From contig NZ_CAKKNB010000001.1 of assembly GCF_918741295.1 (NCBI RefSeq), positions 124,001 to 188,000 of the forward strand: a DNA stretch of 64,000 bases, in the 5' to 3' direction. Shown one piece after another: positions 1,994 to 10,614 of this stretch. A program made the translations under genes and the position numbers. Numbering within the stretch: position 1 is the first letter of the stretch; every line of letters starts with the position of its first letter. Under the pieces are notes generated by a model, which saw only the letters and a list, made by a program, of their open reading frames with translations, was not told where the DNA came from and searched no databases. This stretch comes from Aquabacterium sp. CECT 9606 (GTDB lineage Bacteria > Pseudomonadota > Gammaproteobacteria > Burkholderiales > Burkholderiaceae_C).

Positions 1994-3050
1994 TTGGTTG
2001 AGCCGCCACGTGGGCATCGATGCCTGGGTGGCCTCCTTGATCGCCATCGCCATTCTCACCCTGGTGCTGAATCAGCTGGCACAAGTGCTGCTGCGCCAGG
2101 CCGCGCGGTGGACGGCAAACACAGCCACCACCTGGGATGAAGCCGTGGTCAGTACCGCCCGCCGGCCCATCCTGGTGGCCATGTGGGTGGTGGGCTTGAG
2201 CTTCATGGCGCGCGTGCTGCAGCGTCATGTTGAAGAGCCTTTCCTGGCCGAGGTGCAGACACTGCGCGATGTGGCGCTGATCGCCTGTGGGGTGTGGTTC
2301 CTGTTGCGCTTCATTGGCAAAGCCAGTCGCCATGTCATTGCCGCCCGCCTGGCGCGTGGTGAAGAGGTGGATGGCACCACGATTGACGCTCTGGGCAAGC
2401 TGGCGCGCCTGATCACCCTGGTGGTGGCCGTGCTCATGATGGCGCAAACGCTGGGCTTCCACATCACCGGGCTCTTGGCCCTGGGTGGCGTGGGTGGCAT
2501 CGCGGTGGGCTTTGCGGCCAAGGACATCCTGGCCAACTTCTTCGGTGGCCTGACCATCTACCTGGACCGCCCCTTCAGCGTGGGCGACTGGATCCGCTCG
2601 CCCGACAAGAGCATCGAAGGCACGGTGGAGTACATCAGCTGGCGCCACACCCGCGTGCGTGCTTTCAACAAGAACCCGATCTACGTGCCCAACTCGTTGT
2701 TCACCAACATCGTGGTGGAAAACCCCTCGCGCATGAGCCACCGGCGCATCAAGGAGACCATCGGCCTGCGCTATGACGACATCAACCTCGTGGCGCCCAT
2801 CGTGGCCGACATCCGGGCCATGCTGGCTGCGCACCCGGACATCGACGCCACGCAGACCCTGATCGTCAATTTCACCCAGTTCGGGCCGTCTTCGCTGGAT
2901 GTGATGGTTTATGCCTTCACCAAAACCGTGGTCTGGGTGGCTTACCAGGAAGTCAAGCAAGACGTGCTGTTGAAGATCGGGAAGATCGTGGCGCAGCACG
3001 GTGCCGAGATCGCCTTTCCCACGCAGACGCTGCATTTTCCCCAGCCTTGA
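1977..3050 (+). CDS. MscS-family mechanosensitive ion channel
   Basis: 357-aa small-conductance mechanosensitive channel. The first half has several hydrophobic segments. The pore-lining helix and beta-domain signature follow around residues 175-205 (GGVGGIAVGFAAKDILANFF, then the GLTIYLDRPFSVGDWI region). A reading frame is open from 1926, but the ATG at 1977 gives a normal MscS N-terminus and overlaps the terC-family gene by 17 bp, suggesting translational coupling. The channel relieves turgor in the inner membrane on osmotic downshock. The family call is secure. Confidence 0.92.
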   Translation: MNTISDWLSRHVGIDAWVASLIAIAILTLVLNQLAQVLLRQAARWTANTATTWDEAVVSTARRPILVAMWVVGLSFMARVLQRHVEEPFLAEVQTLRDVALIACGVWFLLRFIGKASRHVIAARLARGEEVDGTTIDALGKLARLITLVVAVLMMAQTLGFHITGLLALGGVGGIAVGFAAKDILANFFGGLTIYLDRPFSVGDWIRSPDKSIEGTVEYISWRHTRVRAFNKNPIYVPNSLFTNIVVENPSRMSHRRIKETIGLRYDDINLVAPIVADIRAMLAAHPDIDATQTLIVNFTQFGPSSLDVMVYAFTKTVVWVAYQEVKQDVLLKIGKIVAQHGAEIAFPTQTLHFPQP

Positions 3051-3088
3051 TCGGCGCTCCGCACTCCCTTGGGGTGGCACACATGTTG

Positions 3089-3136
3089 CTGGTATACAAG
3101 CTGGTACATCAACGGTGCATCAAGCCGGTGCAAGGA
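3089..3136 (+). promoter_or_regulatory. Tandem 11-12 bp repeats upstream of the nitrogen cluster
   Basis: Three to four near-direct repeats sit just before the first gene of the cluster: TGGTATACAA (3090-3099), TGGTACATCAA (3102-3112), CGGTGCATCAA (3113-3123) and a weaker CCGGTGCAAGG. TGGTATAC resembles the half-site of GntR/FadR-type operators (TnGTnnnACnA), and a GntR/FCD regulator closes the cluster at 16023. The last copy abuts the Shine-Dalgarno of the binding-protein gene. Operator function is inferred. Confidence 0.4.
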
Positions 3137-3144
3137 GAAAACGC

Positions 3145-4263
3145 ATGTCGCTGGATCATTGGAATCGTCGTTCCTGGCTCAAGACGGTGGGTGCCACCGG
3201 AGCTGGAGTGGCCATGGCGGGCTGGTCTGACCTGGTGCTGGCGCAAAAGCCCATCACCATCGGCATGATCTATGTGGGCCCCAAGGACGACTTTGGCTAC
3301 AACCAGTCGCACTACGAAGCGGCCTCCGAGATCAAGAAGATGCCTGGCATCAAGATCGTGGGCGAAGAGAATGTGCCCGAGACCCAGGCCGTGCAAAAGA
3401 CCATGCAGGGCATGATCTCGCAAGACGGCGCCACGCTGCTCTTCCCCACCTCCTTCGGTTACTTCAACCCCCACATCCTCGACGTCGCCAAGAAGAACCC
3501 CGACGTGCGCTTCGCCCACTGCGGCGGCATGTGGGACGCGGCCAAGCACCCCAAGAACGTGGGCAGCTTCTTCGGCTACATCGACGAAGCCCAATACCTG
3601 AACGGCGTGATCGCCGGCCACGCCACCAAGTCCAAGAAGATCGGTTTCGTGGCGGCCAAGCCCATCCCCCAAGTGCTGCGCAACATCAACGCCTTCACGC
3701 TGGGCGCGCGCTCGGTGCACCCCGATATCACCTGCTCGGTCATCTTCACGGGTGACTGGTCCATGCCGGTGAAAGAGGCCGAGGCCACCAACAGCCTGGC
3801 CGACCAGGGCGTGGACGTGTTCACCATGCACGTCGATGGCCCCAAAGTCATCGTCGAAACGGCCGCCAAGCGCGGCAAGTTCGTGTGCGGTTACCACGCC
3901 TCGCAAGCCAAGCTGGCGCCACAGGCCTACTTGACGGGCGCCGAGTGGAACTGGGTCACGCCTTACAAGCAGATCGTCGATGCCGCGCGCACCGGCAAGC
4001 CGCATCCCAACTTCCTGCGCGGTGGTTTGAAGGAAGCCTTTGTGAAGACCTCGCCTTACGGCCCTGCTGTGAGCGAAGGCGCGCGCAAGAACGCCGACGC
4101 CATCAAGGCCCTGATGCTGAAGGACGAGTTCGAGATCTTCAAGGGCGAGATCAAGGACAACACTGGCAAGGTCGTGGTGCCCAAGGGCACGACCATCAAG
4201 CAGATCGACCCGGTGCTGGAAGGCATGAACTACCTGGTCGAAGGCGTCATCGGCAAGGTCTGA
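3145..4263 (+). CDS. BMP-family ABC transporter substrate-binding protein
   Basis: 372-aa periplasmic binding protein of the Bmp/PnrA/Med family. It begins with a Tat-type signal (NRRSWLKTVGATGAGVAMAG, cleavage likely after VLAQ near residue 33), then the Bmp domain (TIGMIYVGPKDDFGYNQ through the C-terminal VEGVIGKV). The frame opens at 3001, but the ATG at 3145 follows AAGGAGA at 3132-3138 and gives the signal peptide, so it is chosen. It is the first gene of a plus-strand cluster whose enzymes hydrolyse biuret, allophanate and probably formamide. Known Bmp proteins bind nucleosides or other small ligands; a urea-type ligand is inferred from neighbours. Its permeases follow directly, but its ATPase is seven genes away (11420). 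Confidence 0.9.
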   Translation: MSLDHWNRRSWLKTVGATGAGVAMAGWSDLVLAQKPITIGMIYVGPKDDFGYNQSHYEAASEIKKMPGIKIVGEENVPETQAVQKTMQGMISQDGATLLFPTSFGYFNPHILDVAKKNPDVRFAHCGGMWDAAKHPKNVGSFFGYIDEAQYLNGVIAGHATKSKKIGFVAAKPIPQVLRNINAFTLGARSVHPDITCSVIFTGDWSMPVKEAEATNSLADQGVDVFTMHVDGPKVIVETAAKRGKFVCGYHASQAKLAPQAYLTGAEWNWVTPYKQIVDAARTGKPHPNFLRGGLKEAFVKTSPYGPAVSEGARKNADAIKALMLKDEFEIFKGEIKDNTGKVVVPKGTTIKQIDPVLEGMNYLVEGVIGKV

Positions 4264-7353: not shown

Positions 7354-8045
7354 GCTTGACCATCGAATCCAAACCCTACGCCTGGCCCTTTGATGGCGAT
7401 CTGCAGGCCTCGAACACCGCGCTCATCATCATTGATATGCAGACCGATTTCTGCGGCGTGGGTGGCTATGTGGACAAGATGGGCTACGACCTGTCGATGA
7501 CGCGCGCGCCCATCGAGCCGATCAAGAAGCTGCTCGATGCCTCGCGCAAGGCCGGCATCCTGGTGATCCACACGCGTGAAGGCCACCGCCCCGACTTGAC
7601 CGACCTGCCGGCCAACAAGCGCTGGCGCTCGCGCCAGATTGGCACCAATGGCGTGGGCATTGGCGACGTGGGCCCGTGCGGCCGCATCCTGGTGCGCGGC
7701 GAGCCCGGCTGGGACATCATCCCCGAGCTCTACCCCATCGCGGGCGAGCCCATCATCGACAAGCCGGGCAAGGGCTGCTTCTGCGCCACCGACCTGGAGA
7801 TGCTGCTGCACACCCAGGGCATCAAGAACATCATCCTGACCGGCATCACCACCGACGTGTGCGTGCACACCACCATGCGCGAGGCCAATGACCGTGGCTT
7901 CGAGTGCGTGATCCTGACCGACTGCACCGGTGCCACCGATCCCGCCAACCACGCGGCCGCCTTCAACATGGTGTTGATGCAGGGCGGGGTGTTTGGCACG
8001 GTGTCAGATTCTGGTGCGGTGATCAAGGCGTTGGAGACTTTGTGA
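7350..8045 (+). CDS. biuH: Biuret amidohydrolase (isochorismatase-like hydrolase)
   Basis: 231-aa cysteine hydrolase of the isochorismatase fold. The triad is Asp29 ([10 protein letters not shown]), Lys138 (IIDKPGKG) and Cys171 ([20 protein letters not shown]). Long stretches match biuret hydrolases as I remember them, notably [27 protein letters not shown] and [13 protein letters not shown]. The reaction is biuret + H2O -> allophanate + NH3; allophanate would then go to AtzF (13767). The start overlaps the formamidase stop. The last codons, IKALETL-stop, are duplicated as IKALETP-stop at 8402-8425, beyond a repeat element. Confidence in the exact substrate is good but rests on motif memory. 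Confidence 0.82.
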
Positions 8046-8085
8046 TGGCGCATTCTTTGCGTGCCGATCGCCTTGGGGTGGCTGC

Positions 8086-8175
8086 GTGGGGTGGGTGGCC
8101 AACTGCGCTCGTGTCCCCCGGCCGGGCTGCGCCCGACCTCCTCCTTTACCTCGCTACGTTGGCCACCCACCCCAC
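8086..8175 (-). repeat. Hairpin repeat unit L1
   Basis: Outer stem of 18 perfectly paired bases: 8086-8103 with 8158-8175. Inner hairpin CGGGC (8123-8127) with GCCCG (8131-8135), loop TGC. Conserved core on the plus strand is TGCGCTCGTGTCCCCCG on the left and CTCCTCCTTTACCTCGCT on the right. It is in opposite orientation to unit R1. Confidence 0.85.
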
Positions 8176-8209
8176 TTCGCTGGCGGCGATGGTGGTGGCG
8201 TGCCGCCAT

Positions 8210-8239
8210 GTGGGGTTGATCGCTCGCGATCAACCCCAC
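8210..8239. repeat. Central palindrome of locus 1
   Basis: 14-bp perfect inverted repeat, 8210-8223 with 8226-8239, separated by two bases. It contains GTTGATCGC/GCGATCAAC. It sits between the two inverted units; locus 2 has different palindromes in the same place. Confidence 0.85.
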
Positions 8240-8263
8240 CCTCACGCAAGCGCTCTGAGGATG

Positions 8264-8359
8264 GGGCGGGCGGGGTGTGCGGCGAAGCGAGGTAAAGGAG
8301 GAGGAATGGGCCAAGCCCATTCCGGGGGACACGAGCGCAGCCGTGCACCCCGCTTGCCC
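8264..8359 (+). repeat. Hairpin repeat unit R1
   Basis: Outer stem 8264-8283 with 8340-8359: 20 positions, 16 Watson-Crick and 4 G-T pairs as read on the plus strand, with no true mismatch. Inner hairpin is 9 bp, GGAATGGGC (8303-8311) with GCCCATTCC (8315-8323). Conserved core is GAAGCGAGGTAAAGGAGGAG before and CGGGGGACACGAGCGCA after the inner hairpin. The AAAGGAGGAGG is a near-ideal Shine-Dalgarno sequence. Confidence 0.85.
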
Positions 8360-8425
8360 TGTCCGTTCGCGCCCAACCACCACCCATCATCTTCGTCCCT
8401 CATCAAAGCATTGGAGACGCCGTGA
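8306..8425 (+). CDS. Short ORF (39 codons) starting in repeat R1 and ending on the transporter start codon
   Basis: ATG at 8306 lies 3 bases after AAAGGAGGAGG (8293-8303). The frame runs 39 codons and ends at TGA 8423-8425, which overlaps the GTG start (8422) of the next gene. Its last seven codons read IKALETP, a copy of the end of biuH (IKALETL). The ATG falls inside the 9-bp inner hairpin. It may act as a translated leader that couples ribosomes into the binding-protein gene, or it may be a chance relic. No function is assigned to the peptide itself. Confidence 0.35.
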   Translation: MGQAHSGGHERSRAPRLPCPFAPNHHPSSSSLIKALETP

Positions 8426-9423
8426 GTTCATCTTTGTCGAATAAGCCCGGTCGCCGGCAGTTTCTGCAAGCTGGTGCGGCGTCCGTCGCCGTGGGGGCGG
8501 GCCTGATGTCAGCGCCTACCATCGCCAGCGACGACAAGATCCTCATCGGCTACTGGCCCATCGCCTCGGGCTTGCCGCTGTACACCGCGCTGGAACGCGG
8601 CTTCTTCAAGGAGGCCGGGCTGAACGTGGAGGGGGTGAAGTTCGCCAGTGCCCAACAGGTGGCCGAGGCCATGATCGCGGGCCGCACGCATGGTTCGGCC
8701 AACGGCACGGCCTCGGCCGCGCTGGGCCTGGCCGAGATCGTCTCGCCGGGCTTGTACAAGATCATTTGTTCCAACCCCTCCAACCACAAGTTGATCCTTG
8801 ACCAGTTCGTGGTGCCCAAGGACAGCCCGATCAAATCGATCGCCGAGCTCAAGGGCAAGCGCGTGGCCTCGGGGCCGGGCATCCAGAACGTCACCCTGGC
8901 CAAGATCATCCTGGAGAAGAATGGCATCGTGGACCCCAAGGTGATCGAGTTGCCGATCGGCCAGCATGTGCCCGCGTTGGCAGCTGACCAGCTTGATGCC
9001 GTCTACACGCTGGAGCCCACAGGCACCGCGGGCCGCCTCAAGGGCCTGACCCGCGTGCTGGAAAACGGTGTGATCTCCAAGTATGTGCTGGGCGCGGCCG
9101 ATGCGCCCTGGTTTGGTGGCTCGGCCAGCGTCACCACCAGCCTTTTGAAGGACCGCCCGGACGCGGCCAAAAAGTACATCGCCGCCTATGTGCGGGCGGT
9201 CGACTTCGTGCGCAAGAACCCGCTTGAGGTGCGCAAGCACCTGGATGGCTTTACCTCGATCGACCCCTCGCTGGTCAACGAGGTGCCGCTGGCCGGCTTC
9301 ACGCTCTACAACGAATTCACGGCCTCGGACCTGGGCTACTTCCAGAAGTTCTTCGACGTGTTCACCGAGCGCAAGATCTTCTCGCGCGCTGTGCCGGTCA
9401 AGCCCCTCATCTACACAGGTTGA
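8422..9423 (+). CDS. TauA/NMT1-type ABC transporter substrate-binding protein
   Basis: 333-aa periplasmic binding protein of the NMT1/ThiY/TauA (SsuA) class. It starts with GTG at 8422, preceded by GGAG at 8413-8416, and carries a Tat-like signal (GRRQFLQAGAASVAVGAGLM). The mature part begins DDKILIGYWPIASGLPLYTALERGFF, typical of this class, and continues through IAELKGKRVASGPG. The start codon overlaps the stop of a short ORF upstream. It feeds the permease and ATPase at 9429 and 10615. Such transporters carry sulfonates, nitrate, pyrimidine precursors or other small anions; the ligand here is unknown and probably nitrogenous. Confidence 0.9.
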   Translation: MSSSLSNKPGRRQFLQAGAASVAVGAGLMSAPTIASDDKILIGYWPIASGLPLYTALERGFFKEAGLNVEGVKFASAQQVAEAMIAGRTHGSANGTASAALGLAEIVSPGLYKIICSNPSNHKLILDQFVVPKDSPIKSIAELKGKRVASGPGIQNVTLAKIILEKNGIVDPKVIELPIGQHVPALAADQLDAVYTLEPTGTAGRLKGLTRVLENGVISKYVLGAADAPWFGGSASVTTSLLKDRPDAAKKYIAAYVRAVDFVRKNPLEVRKHLDGFTSIDPSLVNEVPLAGFTLYNEFTASDLGYFQKFFDVFTERKIFSRAVPVKPLIYTG

Positions 9424-9428
9424 ACGCG

Positions 9429-10208
9429 ATGATCCCAAAACAGCTCGACCGCTTGTTCGATGCGCGCCTATTGCCCCTGATCGGGCCGCTGCTGCTGTTC
9501 GCGCTGTGGCAACTGGTGATTGCCGCGCAGTGGGTCAAGCCGGTGTTGCTGCCACCACCGGGTGAGACCTTGCTGCACCTGTGGGACAGTGTTTGGAGTG
9601 GTGCCATCAAGGCCGATTTCCTGGCCACCTTGTGGCGCACTTTGGCGGCCTTCGGCATCGCGGTGGCCATTGGGGTGCCACTGGGGGTGATGCTGGGCAG
9701 TTCGGTCAACGCTTACCGCAGTGTCGAGTTCCTGATCGACTTCTTCCGCTCCACGCCTTCGTCGGCCCTGATCCCATTGTTCCTGCTGATCTTTGGCATC
9801 ACCGATGCGAACAAGATTGCCATCGCGGCTTTTGCGGCGGTGTTGCTGGTGTTGTTCAACAGCGCGTATGGGGTGATGAACGCGAAGAAGACGCGGGTGA
9901 TGGCGGCGCAAATCATGGGCGTGTCGCGCTGGCATGTGTTCAAGGATGTGATGCTGATGGAGAGCCTGGCGCAGACCTTCGTGGGCTTGCGCACGGGGGT
10001 GTCGATGTCGCTGGTCATCGTGATCGTGGCGGAGATGTTCATTGGCTCGGAGACGGGCTTGGGGCATCGGATCATTGATGCGCAGCAGGTGTTCAATGTG
10101 AAGGACATGTACACGTCCATCTTGATCACGGGGGCGTTGGGCTATCTGCTGAATCTGATGTTTTTGTTGATTGAGACGAAGGTTGTGCATTGGAGTGGCA
10201 AGGCATGA
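9429..10208 (+). CDS. TauC/SsuC-type ABC transporter permease
   Basis: 259-aa inner-membrane permease of the BPD_transp_1 family, with the EAA-type loop recognisable as AAQIMGVSRWHVFKDVMLM (about residues 160-180). A TTG at 9420 is possible, but the ATG at 9429 is preferred. It is nearly contiguous with the binding-protein gene. It is separated from its ATPase by 406 bp of repeat locus 2, which is unusual for a transporter operon. Confidence 0.88.
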   Translation: MIPKQLDRLFDARLLPLIGPLLLFALWQLVIAAQWVKPVLLPPPGETLLHLWDSVWSGAIKADFLATLWRTLAAFGIAVAIGVPLGVMLGSSVNAYRSVEFLIDFFRSTPSSALIPLFLLIFGITDANKIAIAAFAAVLLVLFNSAYGVMNAKKTRVMAAQIMGVSRWHVFKDVMLMESLAQTFVGLRTGVSMSLVIVIVAEMFIGSETGLGHRIIDAQQVFNVKDMYTSILITGALGYLLNLMFLLIETKVVHWSGKA

Positions 10209-10239
10209 AAGGCTTGGTGTTGCCGTCGCTTGGGGTTGG

Positions 10240-10341
10240 GACAGAGCGAGGCGGGTGGACAGCTGCGCTCATGTCCCCCGCCCAGGCTGCGCCTGGTCTC
10301 CTCCTTTACTTCGCTCCGCTGTCCACCCGCCTCGCTCTGTC
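10240..10341 (-). repeat. Hairpin repeat unit L2
   Basis: Outer stem of 24 perfectly paired bases: 10240-10263 with 10318-10341, different in sequence from L1 beyond the shared GGGTGG. Inner hairpin CCAGGC (10282-10287) with GCCTGG (10291-10296), loop TGC. Core matches L1: TGCGCTCATGTCCCCCG and CTCCTCCTTTACTTCGCT. Confidence 0.85.
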
Positions 10342-10359
10342 TGGCGGCGCTCTGGCAAA

Positions 10360-10378
10360 GCCTTCGCTTCGCGAAGGC
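10360..10378. repeat. Central hairpin of locus 2 (first)
   Basis: GCCTTCGC (10360-10367) pairs with GCGAAGGC (10371-10378), loop TTC: 8 bp perfect. Confidence 0.7.
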
Positions 10379-10380
10379 CT

Positions 10381-10416
10381 GGGGATGGGCGACGGCGAAT
10401 GCCGCCGCCCATCCCC
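10381..10416. repeat. Central hairpin of locus 2 (second)
   Basis: GGGGATGGGCG (10381-10391) pairs with CGCCCATCCCC (10406-10416), and an inner CGGC/GCCG adds four more pairs across single unpaired bases. This makes a long stable hairpin between the two repeat units. Confidence 0.75.
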
Positions 10417-10444
10417 CTCTCTCCACCAACGTGGTGAAAGAAGC

Positions 10445-10536
10445 GGGCAGTGGGGTGCACGGCGAAGCGAAGTAAAGGAGGAGGTCGGGCGAAGCCCGGC
10501 CGGGGGACATGAGCGCAGCCGTGCGCCCCACTGCCC
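10445..10536 (+). repeat. Hairpin repeat unit R2
   Basis: Outer stem 10445-10463 with 10518-10536: 19 positions, all Watson-Crick except one T-G pair on the plus strand. Inner hairpin CGGGC (10486-10490) with GCCCG (10494-10498), loop GAA. Core GAAGCGAAGTAAAGGAGGAG and CGGGGGACATGAGCGCA, as in R1. Confidence 0.85.
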
Positions 10537-10614
10537 ACTTCGGTTTCACCGCACTCTCCCCCACCACGCAACAACCTCCCACCAGCACCCCAGGCCATCA
10601 AAGAGGATCACCCC

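Follow-up and report, generated by a model that had tools for sequence, protein, structure and literature searches.

The stretch analysed here (the window) comprises 64,000 nt of Aquabacterium sp. CECT 9606 (assembly GCF_918741295.1, contig NZ_CAKKNB010000001.1, positions 124,001-188,000), and all positions are counted within it. The window holds two doublets of a foldable repeat on either side of two transport genes, each doublet being made of two units on opposite strands and each unit of an outer stem (P1), a short inner stem (P2) with an adjoining purine core, and an inner hairpin (P3). That this repeat is real, structured and dispersed is near certain. The units (A to D) and their surroundings are given below, with E values from a covariance model of 48 units and z scores from folding each unit on its own core strand.

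8080-8181, minus strand: unit A, left half of doublet 1 (E 2.5e-21; z -6.73); P1 pairs 8086-8103 with 8158-8175, and P3 is at 8120-8137 with the loop C(GCA)G on the minus strand (read from the sequence)
8138-8155, minus strand: 5' core of unit A, P2 side plus GGAGG (exact core match)
8260-8363, plus strand: unit B, right half of doublet 1 (E 2.5e-23; z -7.78); P1 pairs 8260-8283 with 8340-8363, and P3 is at 8304-8323 with the loop C(CAA)G
8286-8303, plus strand: 5' core of unit B (exact core match)
10240-10341, minus strand: unit C, left half of doublet 2 (E 2.7e-24, in the training set; z -9.06); P1 pairs 10240-10263 with 10318-10341, and P3 is at 10280-10297 with the loop C(GCA)G on the minus strand
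10298-10315, minus strand: 5' core of unit C (exact core match)
10440-10541, plus strand: unit D, right half of doublet 2 (E 5.4e-24, in the training set; z -8.69); P1 pairs 10440-10463 with 10518-10541, one pair being broken, and P3 is at 10484-10501 with the loop C(GAA)G
10466-10483, plus strand: 5' core of unit D (exact core match)
8210-8239: inverted repeat, spacer hairpin between A and B with 14 perfect pairs
10381-10416: inverted repeat, spacer hairpin between C and D
8422-9423, plus strand: gene for an NMT1/THI5-like binding protein (Pfam PF09084), between the doublets and not part of the repeat
9420-10208, plus strand: gene for a transport permease (Pfam PF00528), likewise context between the doublets

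The original prediction had placed four units at these positions, and they were recovered by the covariance model as its only matches in the window (E 2.7e-24 to 2.5e-21, with no others up to E = 1), units C and D (10240-10341 and 10440-10541) having been part of its training set. Shuffling the window 100 times never produced the 18-nt core, which the window itself contains four times. Four is also the count across the whole genome (5,135,025 bases) when up to two mismatches are allowed, and there the model gives the same four at E <= 0.001. When folded on their own core strands, none of the four units was equalled by any of 200 shuffles. The outer-stem lengths and inner hairpins previously noted were correct when checked by eye; the claim that G-T pairs are the sole exceptions in the two plus-strand units holds inside the limits then drawn, but the longer stem of the model adds one non-standard pair in unit D. 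Rfam gave no match in the window at gathering score, which supports the earlier statement that no named family fits in the sense of absence from Rfam, and below that score there were only chance-like matches, nearly all to microRNA models.

Fold, covariation and purine core

The conserved unit spans 104 model positions and was examined in set A1, for which 48 were selected out of 131 of the 293 units (requiring an outer-arm score of at least 24, P3 of 14-24 nt, variable parts no more than 62% alike); that arm score is reached by 280 of the 293 units. RNAalifold predicted 32 pairs for A1, 30 of them with double changes, and in the 35-pair structure described here double changes occur in 32 pairs. 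Paired cells make up 88.2% in the 48 units, compared with 57.7% after shuffling and at most 39.8% with slid partners, and the covariation score of 0.765 (0.187 when shuffled) was reached by none of 500 shuffles, a test done by shuffling rather than with R-scape. The outer stem has a single register, with 92.8% of it paired compared with no more than 48.1% for 24 other registers. As A1 had been filtered for paired outer arms, the outer stem was tested again on 53 units chosen without that filter, in which 90.6% of outer-stem cells were paired compared with 54.1% in shuffles (largest of 500, 58.4%) and double Watson-Crick changes were found at 23 of 23 outer pairs. The original prediction of selection for structure is supported by these results; copies that freely lose pairing, which would have spoken against it, were not seen, with 282 of the 293 units keeping at least 70% of the 23 outer pairs. 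The strand whose pairing is kept is the core strand, and it is very likely this strand that folds.

P2 begins with G28-C83 and C29-G82, continues with G.A and A.G (in 38 and 39 of the 48 units) or with Watson-Crick pairs, and is closed by A32-T79, which also occurs as G-C and C-G; at 30.81 and 31.80 the changes from G.A/A.G to G-C and A-T are concerted. The purine core GGAGG/GGGGG is almost invariant, and its changes are mainly concerted. In the 195 distinct units of sets A4 and A5, of which A5 contributes 52 located mainly by the model (some of its genomes having first been met by pattern), contact 38.75 is GG in 194 and GC in one, 39.74 is GG in 188, AT in six and AG in one, 41.72 is GG in 194 and GA in one, and 42.71 is GG in 194 and AG in one. 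The central contact 40.73 is AG in 178 units, GA in 11, CG in four and AA in two, and is never G.G.

Two other roles for the core were considered and rejected. A two-tier G-quadruplex would have suited the eight G, which did not vary in any of 143 units. However, one family includes six units with A39-T74 in place of G39.G74, so that direct antiparallel contact is favoured, while a quadruplex may still form elsewhere. The core also contains AAGGAGG, which we take to resemble a ribosome-binding site, and often ACATG. As a translation start this is contradicted by ACG and ATT forms, which rule out a conserved start codon, the T of ATG pairing with A32 and changing with it.

Dispersal and genomic setting

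Of 299 genomes from the host's family, at least 93 contain the core pattern with no more than one mismatch, and a reversed control pattern is in none of them; with two mismatches the control gave one match, in G285. The count of 93 is a lower bound, as the model found copies in four of 11 core-pattern-negative genomes tried (22 in G011, five in G097, two in G053 and one in G062). Searching Burkholderiales genomes with the covariance model revealed dispersed copies, with 113 matches in G539, 91 in G285, 37 in G276, 30 in G204 and 29 in G143; the window's genome has four, and the same-genus genomes G159, G241 and G033 have five, three and none. Of 300 genomes from the order, 12 match a strict two-core pattern: four belong to the host's family, six to family f13 and two to f21. 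Under stricter filters the model matched three of 143 genomes of the class and four of 200 of the phylum, and every match outside the host's family falls in f63, a further family of the class. Carriers include at least Variovorax, Hydrogenophaga, Rhodoferax, Rubrivivax, Ramlibacter, Aquabacterium and one Stagnimonas bin. The units apparently form an undescribed repeat family dispersed across Burkholderiales and a few related bacteria, undescribed meaning that no description was found in the open-licence literature.

Neighbouring units form inverted doublets, in the order minus, plus in 108 of 110 cases. By gap class, assigned with a home-made gene finder, 166 of the 293 units lie in tandem gaps, 83 in convergent and eight in divergent ones, with two inside genes and 34 at locus edges, compared with 132 tandem, 22 convergent and 76 divergent among 230 element-free gaps of at least 100 bp. 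The repeat prefers gene 3' ends. In this genome all four copies lie in the nitrogen cluster, as had been noted, but the confinement does not extend to the family, whose neighbours elsewhere are genes of many kinds, and a tie to nitrogen genes is not supported. Catabolic and transport genes recur beside units, counted with no background comparison (for example at loci L027, L029, L132, L150, L154, L195 and L242, and further at L020, L106, L141 and L162), and presumably include carboxylase and dioxygenase-like genes.

Dispersal is accompanied by occupied, empty and partly deleted sites. The Variovorax doublet is about 262 bp long, has copies throughout the genomes and bears the tips GTTCAGGGCG/CGCCCTGAAC; one G285 site appears among relatives in an occupied or empty form, with an internal deletion, or with nothing but the tips left, and two further sites show occupied, empty and reduced states. 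Short palindromic relics with only the outer tips of the Variovorax element were also seen at L274 (G339), L279 (G340), L236 and L237, which suggests frequent internal deletion. In the window's genus, G241 lacks doublet 1 and has doublet 2, and G159 has a doublet like the second one directly after the isochorismatase gene, the two transport genes not being there. In L077 of G159 (about 2918-3222), the right unit's inner hairpin resembles unit B and the left unit resembles C by eye, a mixed likeness that suggests exchange between doublets. In one gap, which we take to lie between two acyl-CoA carboxylase genes, a doublet is common to seven genomes with P3 differing among them, and six of these genomes have one unit whose P2 is missing 4 nt on each side.

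No cognate insertion sequence was found for the repeat, MITE-type terminal repeats (those of miniature inverted-repeat transposable elements) having been considered from the Variovorax tips, and no target duplication was seen at the Variovorax sites compared, which are not clean enough to judge. No mobile gene appeared among the neighbour clusters shown. An autonomous copy was rejected for the one wide pair looked at (L062 1677-3141 in G280), in which two units in the usual orientation, 1335 bp apart, enclose a reading frame that does not resemble a transposase; the frame, not called by the gene finder, presumably resembles an Mrr-type endonuclease.

Relation to known repeats

The repeat works like repetitive extragenic palindromic (REP) sequences but fails the REP and REPIN features tested, REPINs being REP doublets. 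As in REP sequences, bacterial interspersed mosaic elements (BIMEs) and REPINs, there are extragenic palindromes, inverted doublets, a location at gene 3' ends and dispersal within genomes, together with a proposed recognition as single-stranded DNA (ssDNA), and the parts considered of PMC3733652 and PMC3116915 give as REP features a dispersed, extragenic 3' location and the occurrence of both inverted doublets and solo copies. In agreement with an extragenic tandem or convergent location, 249 of the 293 units lie in such gaps. However, REP sequences are palindromes of 20-50 nt according to the parts considered of PMC8266576 and PMC3733652, whereas the unit spans its 104 model positions and has a free outer stem. 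The unpaired GTAG/CGTC foot motif of REP sequences has no such conserved columns among 143 units, GTAG being present in some A5 units (GTAGAGG) without being conserved, and the conserved purine internal loop is a feature of the repeat that differs from REP and REPIN. In the parts considered of PMC3733652, PMC8266576, PMC2817692 and PMC2267715, the present element is not described.

In REPINs the hairpin spans the doublet, with compensatory changes across it (PMC3116915, in the parts considered). Here, in contrast, P1 identity is 0.489 between the mates of 108 doublets and 0.525 between random units. For 52 doublets in which P3 is longer, pairing reaches 95.3% within units and 46.2% across mates. 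The transposase domain Y1_Tnp, sought as the mark of a REP-associated tyrosine transposase (RAYT), is present in 68 of 93 carriers and 154 of 206 other genomes, in a hand count over 299 genomes with carriers undercounted. Among 20 carriers searched for it, ten had no match, nine of these ten having been negative previously, and of nine newly searched carriers eight had a match and G539 had none. No Y1_Tnp match was found in G539, G276, G143 or G011 despite their 113, 37, 29 and 22 repeat matches. A RAYT was rejected as the partner because the presence of Y1_Tnp is unassociated with the repeat. Family-wide, a Y1_Tnp match was seen in 222 of 299 genomes, mostly a single one among those listed, whether or not the genome carries the repeat.

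MITEs, ERIC/RU and Correia/NEMIS are likewise short, non-coding, dispersed and foldable. The repeat differs from these elements in that its stems covary where theirs have conserved sequence, and its tips are alike only in the Variovorax form. The window units are not followed by a T run and so lack this mark of intrinsic terminators; between 8000 and 10650 there are three terminator-like sites (shuffle mean 1.9), none of them inside a unit. As proposed for the repeat, integron attC sites, RSF1010 ssiA/ssiB, IS200/IS605 ends and phage N4 promoters rely on one folded DNA strand whose shape is the main basis of recognition, and the ssi sites lie on opposite strands. A relation to such sites was searched for in sequence via plasmid and phage records with the repeat, and among the proteins of these systems via Y1_Tnp alone. 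Phage records gave no match at E 1e-5 and five weak ones at E up to 10. Weak plasmid matches (E 0.1) lie at L295 361-480 and L296 361-480, on Sphingobium and Roseomonas plasmids, and the hairpins there adjoin IS21-type genes and are reminiscent of unit architecture in having purine-rich flanks and, besides an outer stem, an inner hairpin with C(GTA)G.

The folded strand and its explanations

Outer pairs that are not Watson-Crick, read on the core strand, are G.T 89 times and A.C 14 times in A1, with 115 and 20 in the 53 unfiltered units, 67 and 7 in A5 (mainly model-located) and 622 and 109 in the pooled 293 units. In tandem gaps the ratio is 194:29 in 88 sense units and 166:35 in 78 antisense units. 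As G.T exceeds A.C in antisense units too, the strand whose pairing is kept there is not the mRNA of the flanking genes; by eye, A.C pairs on the mRNA strand in the antisense unit of L027, at the carboxylase site, are G.T on its own strand. Among 160 distinct P3 hairpins, 118 have triloops, 112 of them closed by C-G, with 85 C(GNA)G, no C(TNC)G and one C(TTCG)G. Control hairpins outside the elements gave ten C(GNA)G on either strand in 84 triloops, although the two sets were not picked alike, the controls requiring six-pair stems and P3 only two. In A5, C(GNA)G occurs in 15 of 22 triloops among 36 distinct P3, a count that omits 13 of the 52 units because their core did not fit the expression. 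GNA and GNNA loops on G-C pairs give very stable DNA mini-hairpins (PMC4686876, in the parts considered), and the energy tables used here gave all 64 triloops equal scores, without a GNA preference. Judged from these sequence patterns, the folded molecule is probably ssDNA rather than RNA, and the action as plus-strand RNA suggested by the original prediction is weakened, given the nearly equal own-strand bias of antisense units and the DNA-type inner loops.

We favour, with modest confidence, an explanation in which the doublet is a non-autonomous, REP-like mobile repeat that acts via ssDNA and is met by a putative recognising factor. Each of its two modules, on opposite strands, would be a single-strand fold with a free P1 of about 23 pairs, a short P2 of tandem G.A/A.G or Watson-Crick pairs, the core GG-A-GG/GG-G-GG and a free P3 usually ending in a C(GNA)G loop. 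The folded strand would be DNA and not mRNA, becoming single-stranded for instance during replication, repair or transfer; the putative factor would recognise the purine core with the stems as a scaffold, and this factor or ssDNA intermediates would spread the doublet. Gene 3' ends would mostly be harmless places, with some copies retained long. A broader reading is possible but a step short of probable, namely an ssDNA-fold family under selection across bacterial families, with a purine helix (G.G, A.G, G.G) between free duplexes, which would amount to a chromosomal 'DNA aptamer' with a dedicated putative partner, serving its spread or as a strand-specific signal.

Several points weigh against the mobile ssDNA explanation. 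The G.T bias and tandem G.A occur in RNA too, where GNA loops are also permitted. Related copies are frequent among the 293 units, which keeps the pooled counts from being independent. Retrieval of most loci through the 5' core means that the conservation of the core is in part a matter of ascertainment, although the eight core G are all present in 12 of 12 mates that played no part in retrieval. Neither a transposition event nor a mobilising protein was seen. Retention at one site in seven genomes also suggests a host role that pure mobility leaves unexplained, and this shared carboxylase site, where the intact unit is the sense one, would suit a bidirectional RNA element of 3' untranslated regions, in which the last unit met is sense and folds in the transcript to stabilise, process or end it. 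Such an element is unlikely, yet it would account for the scarcity of doublets in divergent gaps, their excess in convergent ones and the minus, plus order by which either transcription direction ends on a sense unit. It would not account for antisense units keeping their own-strand pairing as well as sense units, for the absence of a direction bias in solo units (39 in all, with nine sense and 11 antisense among the 20 in tandem gaps), for P3 loops that are not of the GNRA or UUCG types, or for window units with no following T run.

The remaining two explanations are both very improbable. A true REPIN would be a REP doublet whose movement depends on a RAYT/TnpAREP tyrosine transposase. It fails on mates that do not pair together, on the lack of association with Y1_Tnp, including its absence from four copy-rich genomes, and on a GTAG or CGTC that is not conserved, even though the inverted doublets, extragenic 3' sites, dispersal and solo copies fit the REP literature in the parts considered (PMC3733652; PMC3116915). 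A shade less credible again is a repeat with no function, in which templated mutation or gene conversion keeps the palindrome arms matched so that covariation arises without selection. Arm copying may well add to stem diversity, as P3 differs wholesale among related copies in one genome and at orthologous sites and P2 lost its 4 nt on both sides jointly in six of seven genomes at the carboxylase site, but its simple form gives no bias of G.T over A.C and leaves unaccounted for both the concerted noncanonical changes (40.73 from A.G to G.A; 30.81 and 31.80) and a nearly identical core in several families.

Bacterial small repeats are usually defined by sequence, whereas here the stems are nearly free and structure is kept, and even noncanonical contacts change together. 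Should the folded strand prove to be DNA, the repeat would provide covariation evidence for a functional ssDNA fold and would point to an enzyme or binding protein yet to be found; covariation with a G.T bias alone does not prove an RNA.

Finally, the surroundings of the window's doublets show some further features. The spacer hairpin between A and B is absent from the alignment to the one relative compared, a relative without doublet 1, and the arms of the spacer hairpin between C and D have diverged yet still pair in two same-genus genomes (alignments, by eye). Across doublet 1 from the end of the isochorismatase gene (IKALET) lies a diverged second copy of that end (8014-8045 and 8403-8425, by eye), which may be left over from a deleted gene copy or from the insertion.

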